DNA of 22,194 nucleotides from a virus: positions 1 through 22,194 of the IMG/VR virus record IMGVR_UViG_3300010153_000135. The stretch is one strand, 5' to 3'. Both the position numbers and the translations under genes were made by a program. The notes beneath the pieces were generated by a model. The model was not told the DNA's origin. It did not search any database and worked only from the letters and a program-made list of their open reading frames with translations. Each line of letters begins with the position of its first letter. The first letter of the stretch is position 1. Below are positions 1,213 to 20,994 of this stretch, piece after piece.

Positions 1213-4200
1213 TTATCTTAAAGAGCTAGGGTGTCTAAGTTGCTTATTGCGCTTATTTCTATAGTGCGACAACATCAAGTCTAATTCAGGAAACGCCTTC
1301 TCTGCCCCTGCTTTAGCTTTACCACGAAACTGTTGCAAGAGGCGCTTCATGCCTTTAACACGAGGATCATTAGTACCTCGTTCCCAATCTTCATATTGAG
1401 CAGCCTTCGTCCATTCCCTGAACTGTCTACTTTTTATGAACCGCATCATTCTTTCCCGAACATTTTCTCCTCCTAGTCTGGTAGTTCCAATTGCCTCTTG
1501 GAAAAAATCATAAGCAGACTGACCTTTATCATCAACAAACTTCCGCATGTCCAGCGATTCTTTCCCATGATACTGCGCTTCAGGTGGAGTGAAGCCAAAC
1601 TGAAGGGAGGCCAGAGTATCCAAGACTTCATCGTCCTTAATCTTTGAGTAAGAAAACGGATTAACCATAGAGACCATCCGGTTAAACATGTCTTCTTGGG
1701 TTCCCAGTAGCTTGTCCCCCAAGATACCACGCCTTGCTTCCACCCCACTAGCCAAGCCGGGGATTTTTGCTTTCATAGCAGTCATCAGGTCACGAGTCTC
1801 CTTGATAAAAGGATCGTCTGTAACTACCGTAAACTGAGAAATAGCCTTGGGAATGTAGGAAGTCGCCTGCTTGGTTAACAAGCGTTCTGCATAGTTACCT
1901 CCTCCAACAGGGTTCATTAGCCCCTGCAGTATATTCGTCAGCCCTGCTAAATAACTCTTATTAAGAATATTATTCGATGTCGCATACATCCCAGACATGA
2001 ACAGAGCATTTATCCAGTTATCGTTTATATCCCCTCCCTCACTTGCCTCGTCCAGAAACTCAGCCATATCAGCTGACAGCCCTAGAATGGTGGAGAACGG
2101 ATCAAGCCGTGCGTAGCTAACGTAATATTCTCCAATTTCAAACGAATAGGGACGCCATCCGGTCTCCATCTTTAGCTTACGCTCTCGTGCATTCGTTGGC
2201 CCCTTCCCGGTAACCGTCCCCATTGCAGCCAAACTGATCAGGCTTGAGTATAGCATCGCGCCAGTTCTAACCCTGCCTAGGGCTTCAGCAGCCCGAATTG
2301 GGTCTTTACTGAGCATATCAGCCTGATACCTCATATGGAACTTCTTCAGCATACCCCCTCGCTTCTGTATAAGCGCATCACTAGGAGCGAGCGGAATCCG
2401 CTGAAGGGGAAACTTTAACAAGTTGACAGGAGTACGAATAAAGGGCATTAAGATTCGCATCCACGAATGTCTACCTACCAAGTCCTGTATGTCCTGCTGC
2501 CACGATTTATCGTCAGGATTAACCTTATTGTGCGACAGCATCCTCTTGAAATCTGTATCCAATGGGCGCGTAAACGTCACATCTTCAGCCCAATCCATTG
2601 CGAAGTCCGACAGAGTAGAGCGGTTGGCATCGTAGTGCTTGTCTACGAAGTTATAAATATAATCATCCCTATTACTAAACTCTGGAGGGAGCTTCTCACC
2701 TGACGAATTCGCATGAGCAATGGCTGCTGCATAGTTATTCCACGCTTCGTCCTGCAGAACATCAGGTGTGTAACGAGCGCCAGTTTTGCGGATCATCCCG
2801 TGGAATCTCGTGGCAGCATGCTCTGCCAAGGCTTTATGAGAAGCCCCTTCTCCTAGCTCCTCAATCGCATCGCCTGTTAAGCGAGCCATTGCTGATGATC
2901 TATAGGAAATCTGTTTGTAAAGTTCATCGGTACTAATCATGAACCTACTGGGGAGGCGTATCATCTCTCCCGCCCAATCAAGCATTCCCTTTGCCCAGCG
3001 TCCTACAGGTTGTCCTAAGAAAGCAGCATCAGCAATTCCATCAGGGATGAAGTCGCCGGTTATTGCTTTAGTTGGGGTGACATCAAAGAGTGCGCTACGT
3101 GATTCTAATACACTCTTGCCGCTTCTGAATGCCTTACGGCCTCCCGCAAGAGCCCCTGCTCCCTGTGTTCCTCTTCCAAATATCTCTTTGCGCCCTTCGT
3201 TATAAGCTGCTTCTGTAGACCATCGAGTCATACGAGCGCCCTTGTTGAGCCCTAATGCAGCAAGCAGCTTTATGGTCTCGCCCATAATGTTAGCCGCATA
3301 CATGGTTTGGTGGATAAAGAATCGACGGGACTTTCGGTCACCAATTGCTCCAATGAATCCCTCCGCTGGCTTGTATGCCATGTGAAGGGCTGTACCTATG
3401 GTGTTAACCACTTGGGTTTTGGTTCCCGAAAGAATGGAATTCAGCCAATATTCATTATGAAGATCGATACCTGTGATGGATTTGTGGGTGAGATTCTTGA
3501 TCCCAATAGCAGCTTCTTCGCCAGCTTGTTCTGATCCAGCTTTCTTTGCGGCACTCATTATGGCCTCCAGCCTATTTGCTAACTTAGTCAGGCCGCGCTT
3601 CCCTCCCGCTCTGTTGATGATCTCATTCAACATGACTTTCGGGTCACCCCCAAACATGTCTAGTGACTGCATCGATTTATGGGCCGCTAGTTGGCGACCT
3701 GAAGCTGTTGAAAGGCGTTGGAACGAGGATAACTTTGCCTCTATGCGTTTAAGCTCAGCCGCAAACTCTGCGAAAGCTTTGTCAGAGGTAGGTGTTGCAT
3801 CTGTGATCTTCTCGGTGAGCTTCATGAATTGCTTCATGGAAACCATCTGGTCAATACGGTAAGCCCACGTTCTAACGTAGAGCTCCTTCATCACTTTAGT
3901 ATCCTCTAGGAGAGCTTTCTCTAAATCGGTATGGCCCACCTTGAGCTCATCCCATGATCCCTTCCAATCCCCGTAACCCTTTCGGAACCGCTCCATGACC
4001 ATCAGAGAGTCCATGTTGTTAGCAGTAGCAATATTATCAATCTGATTAATCACATCCTGCATCAGGACATCTTTAGCTGACATCCCGTGATCATCAGAGA
4101 GCCAGCCAATAGCTTTAGCAATCTGATCATCTTTGGATACGGCCATGCTTTTCTTCAGATGGCCAGACATGAAGTGCATCAGGCGTCCTGTGAAATATTT

Positions 4201-5967
4201 AGACCCAGCATCCGTCATCGTGCCATCCACGTTGATGAGTTCCTGAGCTTCCAGCAGCATCTCGTTAAGGTTCTTACCCTTACCAAGGGCTGCTTGCTGT
4301 AAGCTTTTAACGAAACCACGGGCGGCATCATCACCACCTGAGAACAGCCTCTCGTGTATCAGCTTAGGATCGACTTCTAGATGCTTCATTCCAGCAGGAG
4401 CATCAAACTCATACTTCCAGAGGCTTCCTATTCCTCGACGCTTTAAGGCGTTTGCTGCATGGATATCCAACCGCTGTTGATAAAGCTTCTCATTCCTCGT
4501 CTTTGGAAACTTTATTTCCGCACGTTTCCGCGCAATCAGCCATGCTTCGTATTCAGATGCACTATTGAAAGCAGCCCTTGGAACGGTTGTTCCCGTTGTA
4601 GACGAGGCTAGTAATTCTTTTGGCTTACCCTTAGTAACGCCTTCCCATTCTTTAAGAATCGCATTGCGGTTAACCCTGATGTCAGCATCATCGACACCCC
4701 TAACAACGCTCTCTACCATTGGCCCTTTTTCCCCAGCTGCTAACTGACGAATAGCTGGGTTGTACTCTTTACTATGATGGACAGCCCCCTTCAGGAAGAC
4801 GGTTTTTAATATTCCAAGCTTGTTCCTTTCTTGAGGAACCTTATCCCACTCGTGAGGTACAACAGTTTCATCTTCAGGACGATTCAGGAGGTCATCATCC
4901 TTACCCTTAGTGTTATCAATTTGCTCCTCTAGCTCAGACTGTTTACGAGCCAAGTCAGCTTCCTCTTGACGAGCCTTCTTTAACTCTTTTTCATTAAGAG
5001 TCTCATTGAGATTACGCTGTGGTTTGTGCTCAAACCCAAGATTTTCCTGTTCTTCCTTCAGGCTCTGCTTGGCTTCTTCGCCAGCTTTGGCTTCTGTTTT
5101 TTCGGCTCCCTTTTTGGCTTTCTCACTCATTCCAAACGCACCCTTCTGAATGAGTTTGGTACGTGTAGCCATAAGCTTCATGGATTGCCAGAAGACATTG
5201 AAGAATCCCCCTAGTAGGGCTCCTTCCGTAGCCATGATTCCTCGTCCCCCTATGTTCGTCATGGCTTTCTCGAACGAAAGTATTGATTCTCGCGCTAAAT
5301 CTTCTGAAGTGCGCTCTTCCCATCCCTCCTGAGAAGAGATATTCTGATAAGCGTTGTGAAGCTCAGGATGAGACTTGAAGAAACCTAACAACATACTCTC
5401 GTCACCATTGAACGCAGCGAAGTCAGCCATGTACCCACGTAACAAACCGTTGAGAGATTCTTGCTTAAGTGTCTGAGCTACCGTCATCTGCTTGCCTGTC
5501 TTAAAAGCCCTACCGGACTTACCTACCTGACGAGCTCGCTGGGCTTTCTTAACATGGTCAGTCCCACGAAGGGCTTTCATCCCATACCCCGTAAGCTTAG
5601 TAGCTCCTTTGGCCATTGGCCCACCGATAGGAAGTCCTGACACAAACTGTGTGATGCCACTAACGACATCAAAATATGTGTTGTTCTCCCGGCGATCAAC
5701 CAAGTCGATGTCAAACAGCCGTTCGCCATTCGGCTTCGTGTAGCCCACCATGTCGGGAATTAGATTCAGCATATTTGATACACCCTTCTCTAGGCCGTCT
5801 CCCAGCCCAGCAACGGTGTTCATCAGCAAACCCTCGTTAGCTCTAGCAGCCGCATCGTAATCCATAGGATCAGCATACTGCCTCTTCAGCCTTGCGAAGC
5901 TGCTGGCAATCTTCCTGTCTTCTGGTGTCGCTACACCGCCTCCAAACTGTCCTCCTTCTAATGGCAT
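1213..5967 (-). CDS. Internal virion protein D, T7 gp16-like (1584 aa)
   Basis: This is a very long protein in the position of T7 gene 16, after the gp15-like gene and before the fibre gene. In T7 gp16 (1318 aa) sits in the inner core, is ejected first and helps pull DNA into the cell. The C-terminal third looks family-typical: an MPFIRTPVNLLKFPLQR segment at about residues 1171-1187, a hydrophobic stretch near 1235 and a late VNPFSYSKI segment. A charged coiled-coil-like region covers about residues 281-360 (Lys/Glu rich). I see no lytic transglycosylase signature at the N-terminus (no ES...GLMQ type motif), unlike T7 gp16. The start ATG at 5967 is 3 bp after the previous stop; the leader is purine-rich (AAAGAAAAGAAAGAA) without a strict Shine-Dalgarno sequence. 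The assignment rests on position, size and the C-terminal region rather than on full-length similarity. Confidence 0.78.
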   Translation of the reverse strand: MPLEGGQFGGGVATPEDRKIASSFARLKRQYADPMDYDAAARANEGLLMNTVAGLGDGLEKGVSNMLNLIPDMVGYTKPNGERLFDIDLVDRRENNTYFDVVSGITQFVSGLPIGGPMAKGATKLTGYGMKALRGTDHVKKAQRARQVGKSGRAFKTGKQMTVAQTLKQESLNGLLRGYMADFAAFNGDESMLLGFFKSHPELHNAYQNISSQEGWEERTSEDLARESILSFEKAMTNIGGRGIMATEGALLGGFFNVFWQSMKLMATRTKLIQKGAFGMSEKAKKGAEKTEAKAGEEAKQSLKEEQENLGFEHKPQRNLNETLNEKELKKARQEEADLARKQSELEEQIDNTKGKDDDLLNRPEDETVVPHEWDKVPQERNKLGILKTVFLKGAVHHSKEYNPAIRQLAAGEKGPMVESVVRGVDDADIRVNRNAILKEWEGVTKGKPKELLASSTTGTTVPRAAFNSASEYEAWLIARKRAEIKFPKTRNEKLYQQRLDIHAANALKRRGIGSLWKYEFDAPAGMKHLEVDPKLIHERLFSGGDDAARGFVKSLQQAALGKGKNLNEMLLEAQELINVDGTMTDAGSKYFTGRLMHFMSGHLKKSMAVSKDDQIAKAIGWLSDDHGMSAKDVLMQDVINQIDNIATANNMDSLMVMERFRKGYGDWKGSWDELKVGHTDLEKALLEDTKVMKELYVRTWAYRIDQMVSMKQFMKLTEKITDATPTSDKAFAEFAAELKRIEAKLSSFQRLSTASGRQLAAHKSMQSLDMFGGDPKVMLNEIINRAGGKRGLTKLANRLEAIMSAAKKAGSEQAGEEAAIGIKNLTHKSITGIDLHNEYWLNSILSGTKTQVVNTIGTALHMAYKPAEGFIGAIGDRKSRRFFIHQTMYAANIMGETIKLLAALGLNKGARMTRWSTEAAYNEGRKEIFGRGTQGAGALAGGRKAFRSGKSVLESRSALFDVTPTKAITGDFIPDGIADAAFLGQPVGRWAKGMLDWAGEMIRLPSRFMISTDELYKQISYRSSAMARLTGDAIEELGEGASHKALAEHAATRFHGMIRKTGARYTPDVLQDEAWNNYAAAIAHANSSGEKLPPEFSNRDDYIYNFVDKHYDANRSTLSDFAMDWAEDVTFTRPLDTDFKRMLSHNKVNPDDKSWQQDIQDLVGRHSWMRILMPFIRTPVNLLKFPLQRIPLAPSDALIQKRGGMLKKFHMRYQADMLSKDPIRAAEALGRVRTGAMLYSSLISLAAMGTVTGKGPTNARERKLKMETGWRPYSFEIGEYYVSYARLDPFSTILGLSADMAEFLDEASEGGDINDNWINALFMSGMYATSNNILNKSYLAGLTNILQGLMNPVGGGNYAERLLTKQATSYIPKAISQFTVVTDDPFIKETRDLMTAMKAKIPGLASGVEARRGILGDKLLGTQEDMFNRMVSMVNPFSYSKIKDDEVLDTLASLQFGFTPPEAQYHGKESLDMRKFVDDKGQSAYDFFQEAIGTTRLGGENVRERMMRFIKSRQFREWTKAAQYEDWERGTNDPRVKGMKRLLQQFRGKAKAGAEKAFPELDLMLSHYRNKRNKQLRHPSSLR

Positions 5968-5970
5968 AAA

Positions 5971-8900
5971 TTATTCTTTCTTTTCTTTAGGCTTCACTCC
6001 ACCTCTCGACGAGGAGACAGGTACTTTTGTCTTAGAGTCCTTTAGCTTGTCCATCTTAGGTAACGCAGGGCTTGGCGTTAGCTTCGTCGTATCGTAGTTC
6101 CACGGCTTCGGAGGCAGAGGTAATGGGTACACCTTGAAATCCGAGAGGTAGGGAGAGTAAGGGTTTTCGGTATCCTCTACTGAGGACATCCTCACTAACA
6201 TGTTGTACGCTTCAGCTAACTCAGAGTTAGGCTCAAAGCTCCGAGTCGTTATCTCCTGCTCAGAGTATTCTTTAGTCAGCGGTAGATGGTCTTTATCCAT
6301 CTTCATCGCTCCTCCGCTCAGTAATTGAAAATATTTATGATATGTCTCATCCCACCTCTTGCTTCGGTAGGTGTTTGTTTCAACATCGTTGAACGACTTA
6401 TAGGGGAAGCCTAAGAATGTTCCGCTGCTCTCCCAGCCCCTCTTCTCGCCACTAGCAGTATAGAGATCACCTTTAACCTTCCTCCTTACGGTTGTCTTTT
6501 CCTCCTGCCGGGGATCAGTCAGCGGGAACCCCTCGAAAAGCACAAATTTTCTACCCTTGATATGCCACGGGTTCATCTTAGCCGCTGCTCCAAGGGGGTT
6601 AGCTGTGTTCATAGCAGCTAGTGTGAGTGCTGTAGCTACGGACTGCTTCCAAGGTGTATTCTTTGAGAGCTCTTCAGCTGTCTTACCCTCCAAGTCCATC
6701 TTCGTCTGCCGCACATCATATACCGTCTGGGGGTGGCCACCATATCCACCATAGTCTTCCCATGTATGCTCTGAGGTAATCGTAGGGCCACTTACGCCTG
6801 AGAAAAATTTGTAGAAATTTACTAAGTCTATGCCCTCTTTAACATTATGCCCTTGGGTTGCTATGGCAGTATTGTTCTCGTAAGCATTCTTTACATGTCC
6901 AGCTTGGTCAGGGGTATACTCCTTACCCTGAAACATAAAGTTCTTACCCGAAGGTGCTGGAAGGATTTTACCTTTAGGCCACCCATCGCTCTTGAAAAAG
7001 TTCTGTAGCAGTTGACGCTTGATGCCGACATTAACATCAGCTGGCATGTCCCCCACATCGATCCCAAGTTTAATCCTCCTCTGAGGTTCTAAGACCTCAC
7101 TTCGGTATCGAAGTATATTCTCCTGACGGGTAGGCTCATGAATCACGCCATTCTCCATCGGCATAAGATCAAGGTTCAAGGGGCCGGTCTTCAGGAACGC
7201 AGCAAACCTCTTCAGTTTAGCCAGACGCTCTGGCTCCATGTCTTCAGGAGCAAGCTCCCACTCATCATAGAGATTAGACATCTCAGAGATATCAGCCCAA
7301 GACTCAAAAATCTGGTGCTTCCTAGGGTCGATCCCTTTTGGATTAACTTTAATCTCTACCGGATAATCCTCTCCTAGAGTAAAGACTGCTTCAATTGGGA
7401 GATATTTATCGTCAACTGACTTCTCCCAACTCGTCCCGTTGTACTGCAGATGGATATCAGCCCAGTAGTTCTTAAGCCCCTTCAGCTTCGTTTGGGCTTT
7501 TTTAAGCTCCTCCGAGTTCTCCATAGGGTTGTTCCCCTTGAACTCAATATCCTTAGCAGTTTGAATTATATCTTGTTCGATTGTCACAAGCTGCTTATCA
7601 GCAGCCATACGTATTTTAGAACCGAGAGCAGCCAAGCGATCCCCACGCTGTCCTGCATACATCTGAAAAGCTACGTTCTCGTGTGATCCTGTTTCATCTT
7701 CGACAGGCTTCATGTGACGAACATCAGCACTAGATAGCTTTTCCAGAACCGTGTGGACTCGCTGCAACTGTTCGTCCCTTCCGGCGCTTAGACTCCCTTC
7801 CGCTGCTTTGTCACGACTGTCCCCAGAGTCTACGTCAGGTTCTCCCATACCCTTATCATACTTCTCACCTAGGGCGGTCTCTTCCACACGACTTTGCGCT
7901 GACTGCCCTTGGTGAAACTTCCACATCTCATCCTGAAAAGCTCGCGTACTAAAGAATGCCTTCAAATCCTGTTTGACCTTCTCTTTGCCTCCCCCCTCCC
8001 ATGCTGTTTTCTTCTCGCCGGGGTCTGTCACACCGGCATCAGCCTGATCGCTCTGCCATTGGTTAACCATTTCCGTCTTCTTACGGGTTATCGCACGAAC
8101 CAACCAATTAACGGTCTTCGTAGATGCCTCCTTGTTGGGGAGATTTATCTCAAGAGCACGGTCACGGTCATCAGGCAAGCCAGTAGTGGCGGCATCATCT
8201 GGTTGACGCGCCATCTGTGTTAGCTTCGCAAGATTAGGAGCAATTATCTTTTCATAGAAGGGATAATATATCGCTCCACCCACGTTCCGCTGCTCATCGC
8301 CGACAGCGTCACCGATCCGCTTCGCTCCATAGGCAGCACTCTGCCCAAAGACATCCAGAACAATATCTTTCTCAACCTTAATCGAGGAGTGAAGTTCAGC
8401 TTCGCCTGTCTGCTGCCTCTTGATTACGTCAAGCATGGCAGTAATATCTGAGTCTAAATCTGAATCGCCTGCGCTGTTTGCGTTTCCGTATTGCTGCACC
8501 CTTATAGCGATCAGTTCAGCTTCAGCCCCTGCGGGAATCTGCCCCGTGTCAGCATAGTAATCTTGTATCTGCCCTAGCTTCTGGCGTCCCCACCTGACCC
8601 CATAGTTATCGTCGCCTGACATGAAGTGGCCCTCCATCCAGCCCTTCATAATAGCCATCAGCTTTTCCCCTTCTATCGTGTGGTCAGGGTTATTCTGGAG
8701 ATACATGGTATCCAGCATGTTCCCCTTGATGAAGGACTCAAATGCGGTGCGTGGACTTTCAGAGTTTAAGACCATCTTTCTGAAGATAGGCTTGAACGAA
8801 GGCATCATGATGCGAAGATAAACATCCTCCATGACTTTTTTTGTAATATCGGTGTCTATAATTTCATTGGCCTTCCTCGATGAATCCTCAGACTCCGCGT

Positions 8901-10317
8901 AGAACTTATGCATCGCATGCTTAACCGTATCTAAGAGAACAAGCCTGTGCTCCTCTTGTACTCTCGATGCTTCTGGGCTGTTTAATATCTTCTTAAACCT
9001 AGGGTCTGTGGAAGCTATCGCAATGAACCGATTAAAATTTTTGTGATTAATATCACCGATCCTTGATATGCCTTCTTTCTGGAATGCCTCTGCTTGCTCC
9101 TGTGGCCATGTCTCATTCGCAAAGTCATCCATCATGGGCCACAAGACTTTGTCCCCAAAAAATTTAGCATCGTTCGCAGACTGTGTAGTCAACCTACTTC
9201 GCCTTGCTGCCTGAGAGTCATAAAGATGCTCCAGCTGAGCTTCTGCTTCTTCCCTGAATCCTCCGACTACCGAGGTGCTTCCTGTTGGAACCTTAGAACG
9301 CTCCCCAGTTGGTTTGCCTTTGTCATCGGTCAGCATTGCATGGGTTGGCCTACGGAGGTTGAGGAAGCCATCTACCCATGTCTGTAGCTTATCAACATCA
9401 ATATTAATATCGTTCACCGCCCCATTCACAACTGGAATCCAAGCGTTCCTGAAGACATCCTCCTGATACAGGAGTCCTTCTGGTACATTGGTAGGCCAAT
9501 TGTGTGCCTTATCGGTATAGGCTTCAGCTACCGGAGCGAGTGAAGCCTGTAATAGCTTCTTCTGATAAGCGGCCCGTTTCTTTTCAGGGATTGGGTTACC
9601 CTCCTCATCAACAGTAGCATCCGACTCAACGAACTTAGTCATGTTGTCTCGAAGGATACCCCTCATATCAGTAATGTTCGCTACTCGATCCTTAATCTCC
9701 TTACGCTTGTTCCAATCCGCTAATGCTTTTAGGACTTCGGGGCGCTTCTCTACGCTTTGAAGATATGCGTTATCATACCCTTGTCGCCAGTTTTCTGTAA
9801 TAGATTTTGAGTCATCATCTTTACGCTGCTTGCGGCTATCCCAAGCAAACTTCTGGATGGCCGAAAGAAACTCATCAGATTTATCATAATCCTTATATTT
9901 CGTTAGCGTGTCCTCCCACGCATCAGAGTTGAATAACTCATCGAGATCGACAGAAGCCTGTTCTCCTCCTGCCAGCCTTGCGCCATTGCCCATCACATGG
10001 TCTAGCCTTTTCTGGGGGATGCCTAGCTTTGCGCCAGCAGCTGATATGGCTATCCCCGTGTCGGTGACCGTCTGCTTGAGTGCTGGCAGATTATCGATAG
10101 CCGTCTGCTGTGCAGCTTGGTTGTAACCTAGAGCAGCCCTGATGCCTCCTCGGTTAAACTTCATCAGGTTCTCCGAGAGTGCTTCAATAGAGCTAGGCCC
10201 AACAGGTGGCCCTGCTACACCCACATGACTATAAGGCTGAAGCTGTTTAGGCTTCGGATACTGTGGAGTTCCGAGAGCGTCTAGGGCCGAAGGGGCATAT
10301 CGTTTCTTGCGGGGCAT
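5971..10317 (-). CDS. Internal virion protein C, T7 gp15-like (1448 aa)
   Basis: This large soluble-looking protein lies between the gp14-like and gp16-like genes, the place of T7 gene 15. T7 gp15 (747 aa) forms rings of the inner core and the ejection channel together with gp14 and gp16; this protein is almost twice as long, as is common in marine T7-like phages. It starts MPRKKRYAPSALDALG, is mostly helical and charged, and ends in a basic tail (GGVKPKEKKE). An Ala-rich stretch (ATALTLAAMNTANPLGAAAK) lies at about residues 1226-1248. No catalytic motif was recognised. The start ATG at 10317 has a good AGGA ribosome binding site overlapping the stop of the gp14-like gene. Identity is inferred mainly from gene order and size; another ejected core protein would look the same. 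Confidence 0.72.
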   Translation of the reverse strand: MPRKKRYAPSALDALGTPQYPKPKQLQPYSHVGVAGPPVGPSSIEALSENLMKFNRGGIRAALGYNQAAQQTAIDNLPALKQTVTDTGIAISAAGAKLGIPQKRLDHVMGNGARLAGGEQASVDLDELFNSDAWEDTLTKYKDYDKSDEFLSAIQKFAWDSRKQRKDDDSKSITENWRQGYDNAYLQSVEKRPEVLKALADWNKRKEIKDRVANITDMRGILRDNMTKFVESDATVDEEGNPIPEKKRAAYQKKLLQASLAPVAEAYTDKAHNWPTNVPEGLLYQEDVFRNAWIPVVNGAVNDINIDVDKLQTWVDGFLNLRRPTHAMLTDDKGKPTGERSKVPTGSTSVVGGFREEAEAQLEHLYDSQAARRSRLTTQSANDAKFFGDKVLWPMMDDFANETWPQEQAEAFQKEGISRIGDINHKNFNRFIAIASTDPRFKKILNSPEASRVQEEHRLVLLDTVKHAMHKFYAESEDSSRKANEIIDTDITKKVMEDVYLRIMMPSFKPIFRKMVLNSESPRTAFESFIKGNMLDTMYLQNNPDHTIEGEKLMAIMKGWMEGHFMSGDDNYGVRWGRQKLGQIQDYYADTGQIPAGAEAELIAIRVQQYGNANSAGDSDLDSDITAMLDVIKRQQTGEAELHSSIKVEKDIVLDVFGQSAAYGAKRIGDAVGDEQRNVGGAIYYPFYEKIIAPNLAKLTQMARQPDDAATTGLPDDRDRALEINLPNKEASTKTVNWLVRAITRKKTEMVNQWQSDQADAGVTDPGEKKTAWEGGGKEKVKQDLKAFFSTRAFQDEMWKFHQGQSAQSRVEETALGEKYDKGMGEPDVDSGDSRDKAAEGSLSAGRDEQLQRVHTVLEKLSSADVRHMKPVEDETGSHENVAFQMYAGQRGDRLAALGSKIRMAADKQLVTIEQDIIQTAKDIEFKGNNPMENSEELKKAQTKLKGLKNYWADIHLQYNGTSWEKSVDDKYLPIEAVFTLGEDYPVEIKVNPKGIDPRKHQIFESWADISEMSNLYDEWELAPEDMEPERLAKLKRFAAFLKTGPLNLDLMPMENGVIHEPTRQENILRYRSEVLEPQRRIKLGIDVGDMPADVNVGIKRQLLQNFFKSDGWPKGKILPAPSGKNFMFQGKEYTPDQAGHVKNAYENNTAIATQGHNVKEGIDLVNFYKFFSGVSGPTITSEHTWEDYGGYGGHPQTVYDVRQTKMDLEGKTAEELSKNTPWKQSVATALTLAAMNTANPLGAAAKMNPWHIKGRKFVLFEGFPLTDPRQEEKTTVRRKVKGDLYTASGEKRGWESSGTFLGFPYKSFNDVETNTYRSKRWDETYHKYFQLLSGGAMKMDKDHLPLTKEYSEQEITTRSFEPNSELAEAYNMLVRMSSVEDTENPYSPYLSDFKVYPLPLPPKPWNYDTTKLTPSPALPKMDKLKDSKTKVPVSSSRGGVKPKEKKE

Positions 10318-17108: not shown

Positions 17109-18338
17109 TTACTGACCGGGTTGCTGTTCGTCAGACCACACAACAACAGACTCAGGGCGCAATGCACCGTGACCCATGCTGTACTTGGATACAAACAGGT
17201 TACCTTGACGATTGATCAGATACTCTGACTCAACTGTCAAGTCCATCAGCTTCAGGGTAGCAAAGCCGCCCTTCTGGAACACTATGCCTGCTACATCGCT
17301 GTAGTTTAAGGCGTAGTTATTGTAATCAGCCTGTGATGTCCACCTGTTCTCCTCGCCAGTACGTATACCGTCTGGCAGATGGTTACTCACCAAGATGTTG
17401 ATCCCGGCTACCTGACCCAGCGACCCTGACGAGACAGAGCCCACACCACCGACATCTCTGTTGATGATGGAGTTCACTACGTCAGTATTCTCAGAGTTGT
17501 TAATCAACTCGTAATACATCGCAGGGGTGACAATCGCATAGCGATCACTCGAAGGAACATCCTTCTCATCCAATATCCGTGCCGACTCAAAGAGAGCCTT
17601 GCGGAGGTAAGATGCCTTTGGATCAGCCTTGAGTTTACCTTTAGCAGACCCAGTAGCTGGCCCAGCGTACGCCGTGTTCACGGCATCATACGTGAGGTTA
17701 GCTAGGGTTTCCGCATCGGTTCCAACCGTTACACCAGCAGACTTCATTGAGTACACAACGGAACCCTTCTTCGTCTGCCCTTCAATCCAAGCAGGAGCAG
17801 GAATCAACCCTGTCGTATCACCTGTTGCCTTGTTCGTAGGTAGTTTAACACTCTGCTTTGCGCCAGTTTTCATGGCAACTTGCAGTACGTTCTTATCAAA
17901 CTGGTTAGCCAAGGCTTCACCAAGTTGATGAGTGTACGGAGCACGAACGTCGAAGTGACTCACCAATTCATCGACAGCTGCTATGAACGTAGAGCTCATG
18001 AGCACCTTATCAATGTGGATCATCGTTTCAGTCTGAGTCATCTTGTTCAGACCGCCGCCTTCACCAGTACCGTTACCAACTGTCGCAGTCAGAATGTCCT
18101 GACCGGGGCTGTAGTAACCAGCTTTGGCTGTCCCTATGATGGGGAACTGTGCTGATTTACCCTTCGTGATCGTTCGGATCGTATGAAGGGGTTTCATTAT
18201 ATTCTTCTCATCGAAGACCGTCATTACCTCACCGGCAAACTTCTTTAAGAAGAGAGCGGTTGAGTCGTTTGCACCTTGGTTTGCGCCTACGCGGCCAGCT
18301 GTTCCGCTGCCGAATAGATTATCTGCATATCCTGCCAT
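17109..18338 (-). CDS. Major capsid protein, T7 gp10A-like
   Basis: This 409-aa protein forms the icosahedral shell (HK97 fold). The N-terminal third matches T7 gp10: ALFLKKFAGEVMTVF, then IRTITKGKSAQFPIIGTAKAGYYSPG (T7: VRSISSGKSAQFPVLG), and VRAPYTHQLGEALANQFD (T7: VRSEYTSQLGESLAM). The C-terminal half contains the usual KALFESARILDEKDVP and RYAIVTPAMYYELI segments. The length is close to gp10A (345 aa) plus small insertions. It is the only gene with a long leader (105 bp, two hairpins) upstream and a strong terminator downstream, so its mRNA is probably made and kept at a high level. No sign of a gp10B-type frameshift extension was found; in-frame stops follow at once (TAA TAG). Confidence 0.96.
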   Translation of the reverse strand: MAGYADNLFGSGTAGRVGANQGANDSTALFLKKFAGEVMTVFDEKNIMKPLHTIRTITKGKSAQFPIIGTAKAGYYSPGQDILTATVGNGTGEGGGLNKMTQTETMIHIDKVLMSSTFIAAVDELVSHFDVRAPYTHQLGEALANQFDKNVLQVAMKTGAKQSVKLPTNKATGDTTGLIPAPAWIEGQTKKGSVVYSMKSAGVTVGTDAETLANLTYDAVNTAYAGPATGSAKGKLKADPKASYLRKALFESARILDEKDVPSSDRYAIVTPAMYYELINNSENTDVVNSIINRDVGGVGSVSSGSLGQVAGINILVSNHLPDGIRTGEENRWTSQADYNNYALNYSDVAGIVFQKGGFATLKLMDLTVESEYLINRQGNLFVSKYSMGHGALRPESVVVWSDEQQPGQ

Positions 18339-18443
18339 AATATTTTATCTTATTAATATTTCTAAACAACTAAACGACCATAGCACTCACTATGGTCTCA
18401 CCAATCCCTTCGGATTTGCGTCCAAGTTGTCTGTCGTAACAGG
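18339..18443 (-). promoter_or_regulatory. 105-bp leader of the major capsid gene
   Basis: This is the longest non-coding stretch in the window and holds no plausible small gene. On the coding strand it contains, in order, a small hairpin (AATCC-GAAG-GGATT, 18403-18416), a perfect 8-bp-stem hairpin (18376-18397), a direct repeat GTTTAG-TT-GTTTAG, and an A/T-rich segment AATAAGATAAAATATT before the ATG. In T7 the corresponding area carries the strong phi10 promoter, so I infer that this leader carries the late promoter, an RNA processing or stability element, or both. I could not identify a promoter sequence with certainty. Confidence 0.55.
18376..18397 (-). repeat. Perfect 8-bp inverted repeat upstream of the capsid gene
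   Basis: The coding strand reads GACCATAG-TGAGTG-CTATGGTC, a perfect 8-base stem with a 6-base loop. It is followed by GTTTAGTTGTTTAG, which is T-rich but not a clean T-run, so it is at best a weak terminator. It may instead be an mRNA 5' stabilising or processing hairpin for the capsid transcript. The opposite strand of the element contains ACTCACTAT (18385-18393), identical to nine bases of the T7 RNA polymerase promoter consensus but pointing away from the capsid gene. Confidence 0.6.
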
Positions 18444-18710
18444 CTATTCGGCTTCCCCTTCGGGCAAATCTAACGGCCCCGCTAACCAACCTTCAGGTAG
18501 AGTGACTCTGTTTTTAGAGAGTTCCCACTCAGTACCATTCCAGTAGTACACACGGCCTGTGACCTTTGGCCCTAAACGAACCAACGTGTCACTTGTTGGA
18601 ATGAAGACTACTCTTTTCCCACTTGTCAAGCATCCGCTGCTTCCAAGCGTCACGCAACTTGCGAGGGACAGCAGGAGCAACCGTTGCTTTAACGGGTTTA
18701 GCAGCTTCAT
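18444..18710 (-). CDS. Small putative lipoprotein (88 aa), possible lysis or envelope protein
   Basis: The N-terminus is a lipoprotein-type signal: basic residues K2, K8 and R10, a Leu-rich core from residue 11, and two possible lipidated cysteines, C19 in LASC (good lipobox) and C27 in SSGC. The mature part is short and has a compact aromatic motif, RVYYWNGTEWELSKNRVTLPEGW, followed by an acidic C-terminus. I have a general sense that small phage and mobile-element lipoproteins with a YYWNG.W.LS....PEGW pattern exist, but I cannot give a firm family. It follows the holin-like gene by 23 bp and precedes the capsid leader. By position and topology it could be an outer-membrane spanin (Rz1-type) partner or an envelope-modifying lipoprotein; function is not established. 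The ATG at 18710 has only a weak GGA close upstream. Confidence 0.72.
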   Translation of the reverse strand: MKLLNPLKQRLLLLSLASCVTLGSSGCLTSGKRVVFIPTSDTLVRLGPKVTGRVYYWNGTEWELSKNRVTLPEGWLAGPLDLPEGEAE

Positions 18711-18733
18711 TCCATAGTAAACTTAGTATCTCT

Positions 18734-18997
18734 CTAAGAATTGCTATTAGTGCTGCTGCCATTAGCTGCGTCCAGTTTCTTGAGGGTCAATCGAGAGCCT
18801 GTGTAGCCAAGGGCAACAAGAGCAGCCATGATTAGGCCAACAACCTTAGTCAAACCATCGCTTTCATCCAGTATTCCAGAGGAAGCAACGGCTCCAAGGA
18901 CTACAGCAGCCATGCTCATGTAGAACTCGGTGGATTTATATCCCGGTTTCTTAACCGTTTCGTTCTCCACCGGCACACTCAATTTAGTCTTGGGCAT
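18734..18997 (-). CDS. Holin-like small membrane protein (87 aa, two transmembrane helices)
   Basis: Two hydrophobic helices are visible, about residues 25-43 (FYMSMAAVVLGAVASSGIL) and 49-66 (LTKVVGLIMAALVALGYTG), joined by a short acidic turn (DESDG). The N-terminus is charged and the C-terminus polar and Ser/Asn-rich. The pattern KSTEFY...GIL...GYTGSRLTLKK is typical of small phage holin-type proteins. Class II holins such as T7 gp17.5 (67 aa) have a similar size and two helices. A holin makes holes in the inner membrane at the end of infection. The start ATG at 18997 has a good AGGA site 6 bases upstream, and the gene begins 2 bp after the secreted-protein gene. A non-lytic membrane role remains possible because no endolysin is seen here. 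Confidence 0.68.
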   Translation of the reverse strand: MPKTKLSVPVENETVKKPGYKSTEFYMSMAAVVLGAVASSGILDESDGLTKVVGLIMAALVALGYTGSRLTLKKLDAANGSSTNSNS

Positions 18998-18999
18998 AT

Positions 19000-19326
19000 C
19001 TATTCCTGTTTGCTTCTGCTGATTTCACCAAGCTTAAGATGTACCTTGTTGGTCTTGGTTCCTAAGAAAAGTGAAGGAAACGGAAGTTCCAACGAGAGAT
19101 ATGGAATCTTTAACCTGACTCCATCCGACGAAACGCTGGCATCTGGGGTTACCCCTGCCTTAGCTCCCAAACAAAGAGAGGGAATTGGCCAAGAAATTTT
19201 TTGACCAAAAAGCGTTACGTTAGGGGAGGGCTTAAGGCTCGCTCCAAAGGCACTCGGTTTCTTACCGTTCGCACTTGCAGTCGTTGCGAACAACGCTACA
19301 CCAATGATTAGTATTAGTTTTTTCAT
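19000..19326 (-). CDS. Small secreted protein of unknown function with internal repeat (108 aa)
   Basis: Residues 1-19 form a clear Sec signal peptide (MKKLILIIGVALFATTASA) with cleavage expected before Asn20. The mature part of about 89 residues is basic and contains two similar segments: ISWPIPSLCLGAK at 44-56 and LELPFPSLFLGTK at 79-91, which share P.PSL.LG.K. The repeat suggests a small beta-rich domain with hydrophobic edges. I do not recognise the family. The ATG lies 1 bp after the scaffold stop, with GGAG about 12 bases upstream. With the holin-like and lipoprotein genes it makes a set of three envelope-directed products. A signal peptide is unexpected in a structural operon; a periplasmic role in lysis or in altering the host envelope is the simplest guess. 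Confidence 0.7.
   Translation of the reverse strand: MKKLILIIGVALFATTASANGKKPSAFGASLKPSPNVTLFGQKISWPIPSLCLGAKAGVTPDASVSSDGVRLKIPYLSLELPFPSLFLGTKTNKVHLKLGEISRSKQE
19004..19007 (-). promoter_or_regulatory. Ribosome binding site of the holin-like gene
   Basis: AGGA on the coding strand ends 6 bases before the ATG at 18997 and overlaps the last codons of the upstream gene. It is a clear Shine-Dalgarno sequence and supports the start. Confidence 0.6.
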
Positions 19327-19327
19327 A

Positions 19328-20071
19328 TTATATTACTTCTCCGCTCGTCATACTCAGTCGTTTCTCTACGTGAGCATGCCAATTTCTGTCGCCTGCTTTG
19401 TAGCGAGGGTCTTTCATATCCTGCTGCATCTCATAGGTAGACCCATAGCCTCCTACAGTAGGGGTCTTACCCCCTTGAACTAAAGTAGGTGTAGAAGATT
19501 CACCCGTAGCGGCTCGGTACTGAGACCATAACCCCTTAATAGCTAGGCTTGCGGCGTTGATATCCCCTGTGATGGCATCGTTGTAGGCATCAAGTTCAGA
19601 TGGGTCTACATTCTCAGAAGCCCACTCGGTCATGGCATCATAGTTATCGTCACCGCCTACAATATTAAGAAGCCCATTCTGGTGGGCCTCATTCAGGCTG
19701 TTCTGCCCTTGAATATAGCTGTCAACAAGGTCTCTAGAGATACCCTTCTTTTCTAGAGCTTCATACGTGGCATCTTGCAGTCCCCCCTGCTCATTATATT
19801 CATCGTTGTACTGATCAAACTCTTCAGAAGTTAAGAGCCCTTCAGCCTCTGCACGGCCAGAAGACATCTTCTTTTCCAGCTGATCATATGCAGAAGCTAG
19901 AGCTTCAGGTGAGTCAAACTTATCGTGTAACCACTCTGGTCGTTCGGCCCCCTCCTCTTGAGGTTCCTCTGTTTCCTCTATAGGCATTGGATTCTCTTCA
20001 GATTCCATTACCTCTAGAGACGGATCATCGGGTGGGGTCTCTTCCGCACCCATTGTTACTCGGTCTACCAT
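19328..20071 (-). CDS. Capsid assembly scaffolding protein, T7 gp9-like
   Basis: This 247-aa acidic protein has a Glu/Pro-rich, probably disordered N-terminus, then PEWLHDKFDSPEALASAYDQLEKKM (residues about 46-70), the segment typical of T7-like scaffolds, and a central VGGDDNYDAMTEWASENVD with downstream AYN.AI...IN.AS.AIKGL...Y. The C-terminus has the basic-aromatic end (EMQQDMKDPRYKAGD...V.KRL) that in such scaffolds contacts the capsid protein. It directs prohead assembly and leaves before DNA packaging. The start ATG at 20071 follows an A/T-rich leader (ATAAATAAAAATAAT) without a Shine-Dalgarno sequence; a second in-frame ATG lies six codons later at 20053. In T7 gene 9 is directly followed by gene 10; here three small genes come between. 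Confidence 0.93.
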   Translation of the reverse strand: MVDRVTMGAEETPPDDPSLEVMESEENPMPIEETEEPQEEGAERPEWLHDKFDSPEALASAYDQLEKKMSSGRAEAEGLLTSEEFDQYNDEYNEQGGLQDATYEALEKKGISRDLVDSYIQGQNSLNEAHQNGLLNIVGGDDNYDAMTEWASENVDPSELDAYNDAITGDINAASLAIKGLWSQYRAATGESSTPTLVQGGKTPTVGGYGSTYEMQQDMKDPRYKAGDRNWHAHVEKRLSMTSGEVI

Positions 20072-20085
20072 ATTATTTTTATTTA

Positions 20086-20994
20086 TTAATACTCTCTGCC
20101 CTTGGTGTCGTATCTCTTCTTCTTTCGTGCTCCTGTCTTCAGGTTAGATGAAATTGGTGCGCCGGGATGGGTGTCTTTTACCTTACCCACCTCACCAAGC
20201 TGCTTGGAGGGTGGTCTCCTCCTGTTCTTAGCTGTTCCTTGGCCAATGTTTAAGCGTTTACGATCAGCCTTGGTGTGGGCATCCGAAGCGGTCTTCTGCA
20301 TAGACTTAGGTTTCGACCTAGATATATTCTTCGCGCCTGTTTTTACAGACGATAGCGGCTTGCCTGCCTCATGTCCCCCTCTTCGTGCCTGATCTTTGGC
20401 ATATTTAACATCTGAAGTACCACGACCTACCCGTTTTTGCTGCCTCGTGCCAGACTTCACGATGTGATCCATAAGATTACGCTCGGCAGCTTTCTTACTT
20501 CTTTTCTTGAAGCCGCTTCCAGCCGCCTTCTTTGCAGCCTTTGTCAGGAGAGCTTTACCAGCGGCATAGCCTGCCTTCGCAGCGCCTCCAACAGGGACAA
20601 GATACCCTGCGATATCAAGGGCTTTGGCTGCTCGCTCCTTAAGGGTATGCTTTCTCACATTAGATGCTGCATGTTCACCCGCCTTCCGTGCTCCCTTCTG
20701 AGCCTCGATCAGCATGGTCTTTCGACGCAAGCGATCACGATTCTTTGTGGCAGTAGCAACAGCGGCCTTGGCCTTGTCCACTCTAGCCTTACTTTGACTA
20801 ACAGATGCTTTTGACGCTGCCTGCTTCCTTCTAAGACGCGCTTGTGTCTCGGCCTTGTTCGCAAGAGCTTGCTTAAGTGGGGTAATCTTAGCCTTCAGGA
20901 GGGAACCCTTTAGTTTCCCCTCCGTTTGTCTTAACTCCCGCTGGATTCTTGCGGTGTTCGCTTCCCGCTGTCTTTGTTGTTTCGATTTAGCCAT
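20086..20994 (-). CDS. Highly basic protein of unknown function between portal and scaffold (302 aa)
   Basis: The protein is extremely rich in Lys, Arg, Ala and Gln. Residues 1-100 look like a long charged helix or coiled coil (RQREANTARIQRELRQTEG; LRRKQAASKASVSQSKARVD). About 126-151 is the only hydrophobic part, Gly/Ala-rich (ALDIAGYLVPVGGAAKAGYA), and the remainder is basic and probably disordered, ending KKKRYDTKGREY. I do not recognise a family. The composition resembles histone-like or core proteins that bind DNA, and its place between portal and scaffold suggests it is packaged or involved in head assembly, but this is inference only. It begins 5 bp after the portal stop with no clear Shine-Dalgarno sequence and ends 14 bp before the scaffold ATG. 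T7 has no equivalent at this place. Confidence 0.75.
   Translation of the reverse strand: MAKSKQQRQREANTARIQRELRQTEGKLKGSLLKAKITPLKQALANKAETQARLRRKQAASKASVSQSKARVDKAKAAVATATKNRDRLRRKTMLIEAQKGARKAGEHAASNVRKHTLKERAAKALDIAGYLVPVGGAAKAGYAAGKALLTKAAKKAAGSGFKKRSKKAAERNLMDHIVKSGTRQQKRVGRGTSDVKYAKDQARRGGHEAGKPLSSVKTGAKNISRSKPKSMQKTASDAHTKADRKRLNIGQGTAKNRRRPPSKQLGEVGKVKDTHPGAPISSNLKTGARKKKRYDTKGREY

Follow-up and report, generated by a model that had tools for sequence, protein, structure and literature searches.

A candidate lysis module with an overlapped spanin-like gene pair between the scaffold and capsid genes of marine T7-like phages

Rz/Rz1 of lambda, gp18.5/gp18.7 of T7, and LysB/LysC of P2 are the prototypes of overlapped two-component spanins, and spanins share little sequence. 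In T7, the holin and Rz/Rz1 genes are located just upstream of the terminase genes. An i-spanin gene overlapping the start of an o-spanin gene out of frame is a recognised spanin architecture, and the lipoboxes of o-spanins vary (PMC6139136). For LUZ100, a cultured T7-like Pseudomonas phage, it was reported that no spanin could be annotated (PMC10134795). Here, I analysed a 22,194-base IMG/VR virus record (the window) of a marine T7-like podovirus, which lacks the terminase region and has all its main genes on the minus strand. I suggest, with a probability of roughly 0.6, that a holin-like protein (B) and an overlapped Rz/Rz1-type (i-/o-spanin) pair (X/C) form a lysis module among the head genes.

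Genes between the scaffold and capsid genes

As shown in Table 1, genes A, B, and C lie between the scaffold and capsid genes, separated by 2 bp between A and B and by 23 bp between B and C. In this, the ORFs, their spacing, and their placement agree with the first-pass annotation. Its three-gene unit was incomplete, since a fourth gene, X, spans the 23-bp gap and overlaps C out of frame. At a useful score, no PHROG or Pfam family was found for A, B, C, or X of the window.

Is this arrangement common? A scan of IMG/VR viral contigs with a C profile found 485 relatives, from which 80 loci were kept, and 65 distinct copies were examined for gene order. The scaffold gene lies upstream of C in 58/58 testable distinct copies and the capsid gene downstream in 64/64. 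Thus, the order of the cassette is not due to chance. A B homologue is present upstream of C in 55 of the 60 testable distinct copies, and A is present in 12 of 53. These counts indicate that B-X-C is the core and A an accessory. In loci without B, its place is taken by a phrog_9685 transmembrane (TM) protein (L061) or by other short hydrophobic proteins (L062 and L167). A tblastn search of INPHARED gave no match for A, B, and C of the window or for the C or B proteins of relatives further away, and nothing was confirmed by a C profile search of genome contigs.

Gene A carries the signal MKKLILIIGVALFATTASA, and its family alignment has a conserved signal and an A-x-A cleavage region. PHROG and Pfam had no family match for A, and its AlphaFold model (pLDDT 43.6) is uninterpretable, with no confident fold. 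Since A is optional, it is not part of the core. Lysis or envelope control had initially been suggested from the presence of one protein for each envelope layer; this argument does not hold with an optional A, and the conserved unit is B plus X/C. The possibility that A is an endolysin was rejected because A is optional, is 108 aa in length, and has no family.

Gene B is holin-like in being small and in having at least one predicted TM segment: hydrophobic segments lie at residues 25-43 (KD 1.79) and 49-67 (KD 1.67). Members of the B family weakly match three PHROG holin families (E 0.0008-0.1): phrog_297 in four members, phrog_2359 with the best score (E=0.00079), and phrog_34682 (E=0.0021), the last with a match of nearly full length in L142. 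The window's own B has no holin-family match in PHROG. In Pfam, Phage_holin_2 was matched only at E=0.062, and a PDB profile search with B gave no match. These holin matches are weak and could stem from generic TM similarity.

Gene C has the predicted features of an o-spanin, namely a signal peptide with a lipobox and a lipidated Cys. The signal ends LGSSG|C. The lipobox of the window (GSSG|C) is weak, but the predicted lipidation Cys (Cys27) does not vary within the family, and the lipoboxes of distant members are canonical (LTGC, LSGC, and LAGC). In the AlphaFold model (pLDDT 63.8), the short conserved mature part forms beta strands with moderate confidence. A search with the model found no PDB match worth using and one viral match of 52% identity. 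A PDB profile search with C gave only weak frataxin matches (E>=0.038 over about 27-43 residues), which were taken as chance. The sole spanin-family match for C or X was that of the L062 C protein to phrog_456 (E=0.049).

A conserved single-copy DNA element, GTTACGACAGACAACTTGGA, lies at the 3′ end of C and resembles a T7-type promoter core. The promoter reading is weakened because most genomes scanned have just a single convincing copy. Further downstream is a hairpin, GACCATAG-TGAGTG-CTATGGTC, with no Rfam match. In 16 sequences, 8/8 pairs changed on both sides and 99.2% of cells were paired, but these sequences were trimmed by eye from the alignment to the surroundings of the hairpin, a choice that favours the structure.

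Elsewhere in the window, a Lys/Arg-rich protein of 302 aa without a PHROG or Pfam match is encoded between the portal and scaffold genes (20994-20086). Among the close relatives checked, only L002, L027, and L049 have it, and in the others its place is taken by short basic proteins of other kinds. Two internal proteins of virion type are very large (1584 and 1448 aa; 1213-10317, minus strand) and have no Pfam match, and thus no domain recognisable as a lytic transglycosylase like that of T7 gp16.

Table 1. Coordinates of features in the window (minus strand) and of related loci
Feature	Position	Strand	Basis or remark
Scaffold (capsid assembly) protein, T7 gp9-like	19328..20071	-	PF05396 E=2.3e-16, phrog_1052 E=6.9e-48; upstream boundary
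A, 108-aa secreted protein, optional	19000..19326	-	ORF; Sec-type signal; family alignment
B, 87-aa two-TM holin-like protein	18734..18997	-	two hydrophobic segments; family matches to holin PHROGs
X, 57 aa, i-spanin-like candidate	18589..18762	-	conserved open frame; dual-coding signature
C, 88-aa lipoprotein, o-spanin-like candidate	18444..18710	-	invariant Cys27; mature domain; 485 relatives
Conserved single-copy DNA element	18421..18440	-	at 3′ end of C
Covarying 22-nt hairpin	18376..18397	-	between C and capsid gene
Major capsid protein, T7 gp10-like	17109..18338	-	PF21703 E=1.2e-47; downstream boundary
LUZ100 unannotated 78-aa ORF, candidate spanin-pair member	L070 3063-3299 (LUZ100 record about 20275-20511)		overlaps gp38
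Terminase-side overlapped pair	L083 6060-6362 with G005 25942-26190		
Terminase-side overlapped pair	L181 2070-2375 and 2293-2520		
Terminase-side overlapped pair	L176 1665-1988 and 1783-2073		

Gene X and its overlap with C

Gene X starts within the end of B, covers the 23-bp gap, and is read in a different frame from C, into which it reaches by about 40 codons. It shares 29 nt with the end of B and 122 nt with the start of C. It was found that X is open at the same offset in 28/28 relatives. Among the 65 distinct copies, where X was scored as open at 48 aa or more, it is open in register in all 62 testable ones. With the C protein fixed and the codons random, X would be open by chance in about 24% of cases per sequence, and related sequences are not independent.

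The codon usage of C also bears a trace of X. In 25 aligned relatives, the first, second, and third codon positions of C have variabilities of.114,.305, and.250 in the overlap and of.176,.151, and.421 outside it. The most variable position in the overlap is thus the second of C, which is the third of X, whereas outside the overlap it is the third of C. C codons for the same amino acid differ in.20 of comparisons in the overlap and in.415 outside. A distant clade has a weaker shift in the same direction. Since X is open in register and the variable codon position is shifted, X is very likely a real gene that constrains its overlap with C. The predicted signal peptide of C is therefore partly encoded together with X.

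Spanin gene pairs can be embedded, overlapped, or separated; X and C form an overlapped pair, with a constant out-of-frame overlap and dual coding. Neither X nor C of the window was linked in sequence to a named spanin in PHROG, Pfam, or INPHARED. This lowers their claim to membership in such a family; X and C may nevertheless function as spanins, since known spanins are so dissimilar in sequence. The N-terminal hydrophobic helix of X in the window has a KD of 1.31, an Arg-Glu in mid-helix, and a moment of 0.35, and is amphipathic, while the hydrophobic segment reaches a KD of 1.55-1.71 in relatives. The tail of X is strongly basic. The predicted membrane topology of X is the weakest step in reading the locus as a lysis module.

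Terminase-side genes and rival explanations

How might such a module work? B would permeabilise the inner membrane, and an unrecognised muralytic enzyme would act before X/C. X may be anchored in the inner membrane via its N-terminal hydrophobic helix, and C may be a lipidated outer-membrane protein. Late in infection, X and C would meet across the periplasm and help to disrupt the outer membrane. A would be an optional secreted accessory. The lysis reading draws on the holin matches of the B family, the overlap architecture of X/C, the layout of L185, the o-spanin matches of LUZ100 gp38, the interval genes of phage ProddE (see the last section for these three), and the fact that, apart from C, no convincing lipoprotein was found on the coding strand of four near-complete wider relatives of 37-40 kb (G012-G015; one further ORF of 35 aa in G012 was taken as noise). 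Against it stand the weak membrane segment of X, a second set of genes on the terminase side, and the failure to recognise an endolysin.

The terminase-side set was found in close relatives. G002, G005, G006, L176, and L184 have a second overlapped pair upstream of the terminase genes, consisting of a protein of about 100 aa with an N-terminal TM segment and a coiled-coil-like region and a lipoprotein with a GLEVEY/GLEMEFYEP-like motif. L177 has the lipoprotein of this pair, and G003 has a related lipoprotein only. L179, L180, L182, and L206 showed no such pair in the 1.9 kb upstream of TerL, and L105 showed none in its flank, which is shorter. In the close-relative clade, a one-TM protein of 54-60 aa recurrently overlaps or abuts TerS at the position of T7 gp17.5 (holin). 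Given the second pair and this holin-position protein, two pairs may share the spanin role, or the role may be duplicated. The terminase-side pair by itself was not accepted as an answer to the spanin question, because this pair is patchy and was not seen in the wider relatives. Two neighbouring genes were also observed in this region: a glycosyltransferase-like gene (PF04488; L083 6369-7019) adjoins the G005 pair, with a similar protein in L180, and a 138-aa one-TM protein near the G003 terminase genes (L078 270-686) has a weak match to a mechanosensitive-channel beta-domain (PF00924, E=0.005).

The cassette has no endolysin, as had been noted at first. Amidase_2 was absent from 19 relative records. 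No endolysin family was found among the Pfam matches listed for the G005, G014, and G015 proteins, one scan being represented by the best 25 of 37 families, with the remainder weaker than 8e-5. With no endolysin recognised in the cassette or in the genomes scanned, the genes do not make up a complete holin-endolysin-spanin cassette. The first-pass annotation held that a full lysis set elsewhere would count against its proposal. This is borne out in part by the several close relatives with a holin-position protein and a second spanin-like pair, but not by the four near-complete wider relatives, with C as their only convincing lipoprotein.

Envelope modification and a secondary lysis set are the main rivals. 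In the former, which covers superinfection exclusion, C (with A where present) would mask or alter a surface receptor or protect progeny from debris, B and X would anchor or regulate C, and the terminase-side genes would lyse the cell. The second spanin-like pair and holin-position protein of several close relatives would suit such a division of labour, but the pair is missing from the 1.9 kb upstream of TerL in the four relatives named above, and the wider relatives have no other convincing lipoprotein than C. The small, conserved, beta-rich mature part of C and a weak match of the window's B to a superinfection-exclusion family (phrog_4980, E=0.038) point to envelope modification, against which the B family matches three holin families and L185 has the same arrangement where T7 has its lysis genes. 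I consider this explanation unlikely. Of the initial proposal of a lysis or envelope-control unit, lysis is the part best supported by the comparative evidence (holin-like plus Rz/Rz1-like), and envelope control is left as a rival.

A secondary, redundant or regulatory lysis set seems quite unlikely. Here B would be an antiholin or second holin, X/C would be an auxiliary spanin tuning the timing, and the primary lysis genes would be those by the terminase genes. The occurrence of both sets in close relatives fits this explanation, although, of the two, the scaffold-capsid module is found more constantly in the distinct copies and the terminase-side pair is patchy. It is highly improbable that the small proteins are expressed together with the head genes as morphogenesis factors or parts of the virion: their position between the scaffold and capsid genes is strict, but the signal peptide, the lipobox, and the TM segments point to the envelope as their destination, and no structural family was matched in PHROG or Pfam.

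Returning to the lysis module, it can be tentatively proposed that a large group of marine T7-like phages has such a module in a relocated position, in which X/C would be a new kind of spanin pair, very short and dual-coded, working alongside a muralytic enzyme that was not recognised, and that the genomes of some lineages have two sites with overlapped spanin pairs that differ from each other. If the lysis reading is right, protein families without annotation in at least 485 viral contigs gain a likely role, and spanin-like genes outside the usual lysis locus can be missed, as in LUZ100, which was reported without spanins. One phage group would then offer a natural comparison between one and two spanin-like pairs. 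Which enzyme degrades the cell wall in the B-X-C phages? This is the question raised by the module.

Comparison with known systems

As in two-component spanins, X is a short upstream ORF with an N-terminal hydrophobic segment, and C starts inside X in another frame. The putative periplasmic length of X plus C is about 100 aa, within the reported range of 62-300 aa (PMC6139136). In contrast, X has only about 57 aa, and its membrane segment is weak and amphipathic; C is not proline-rich but conserved and rich in beta structure; and X/C sit among head genes.

Two other T7-like or similar phages have comparable intervals. In the Ayaqvirus S45C18 (AP013544), the scaffold-capsid interval encodes a small TM protein (phrog_9685), after which comes an ORF that has a lipoprotein-like frame nested in it. 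However, the protein families are different, the nested frame is a candidate, and an amidase is annotated beside TerL. In ProddE, a T7-like Desulfovibrio phage, an endolysin and a two-TM putative holin are annotated between the capsid assembly and major capsid genes. Unlike the window, ProddE has an endolysin in this place, a putative spanin is found after the tail tubular protein B, and the proteins are not evidently related to B, X, and C.

The parallels of X and C with L185 and LUZ100 rest on layout, not homology. L185, whose terminase is 64% identical to that of G005, has a B homologue, an X-like ORF of 81 aa, and an overlapping lipoprotein directly upstream of TerS/TerL. In LUZ100, the scaffold-capsid interval encodes the TM protein gp37, the unannotated 78-aa ORF, and the lipoprotein gp38. 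gp37 is a TPTPxDD-type TM protein, and gp38 belongs to a different lipoprotein family from C. gp38-like annotated lipoproteins occur in Pseudomonas phage AF, Aeromonas phages, and Proteus phage Saba, and gp38 matches annotated Rz1-like/o-spanins (E 5e-4 to 4e-2). The 78-aa ORF has an N-terminal hydrophobic helix, its GTG start overlaps the stop codon of gp37, and gp38 starts inside it. Thus, LUZ100 resembles the window in having, within the scaffold-capsid interval, a TM protein followed by an ORF that is overlapped by a lipoprotein gene.
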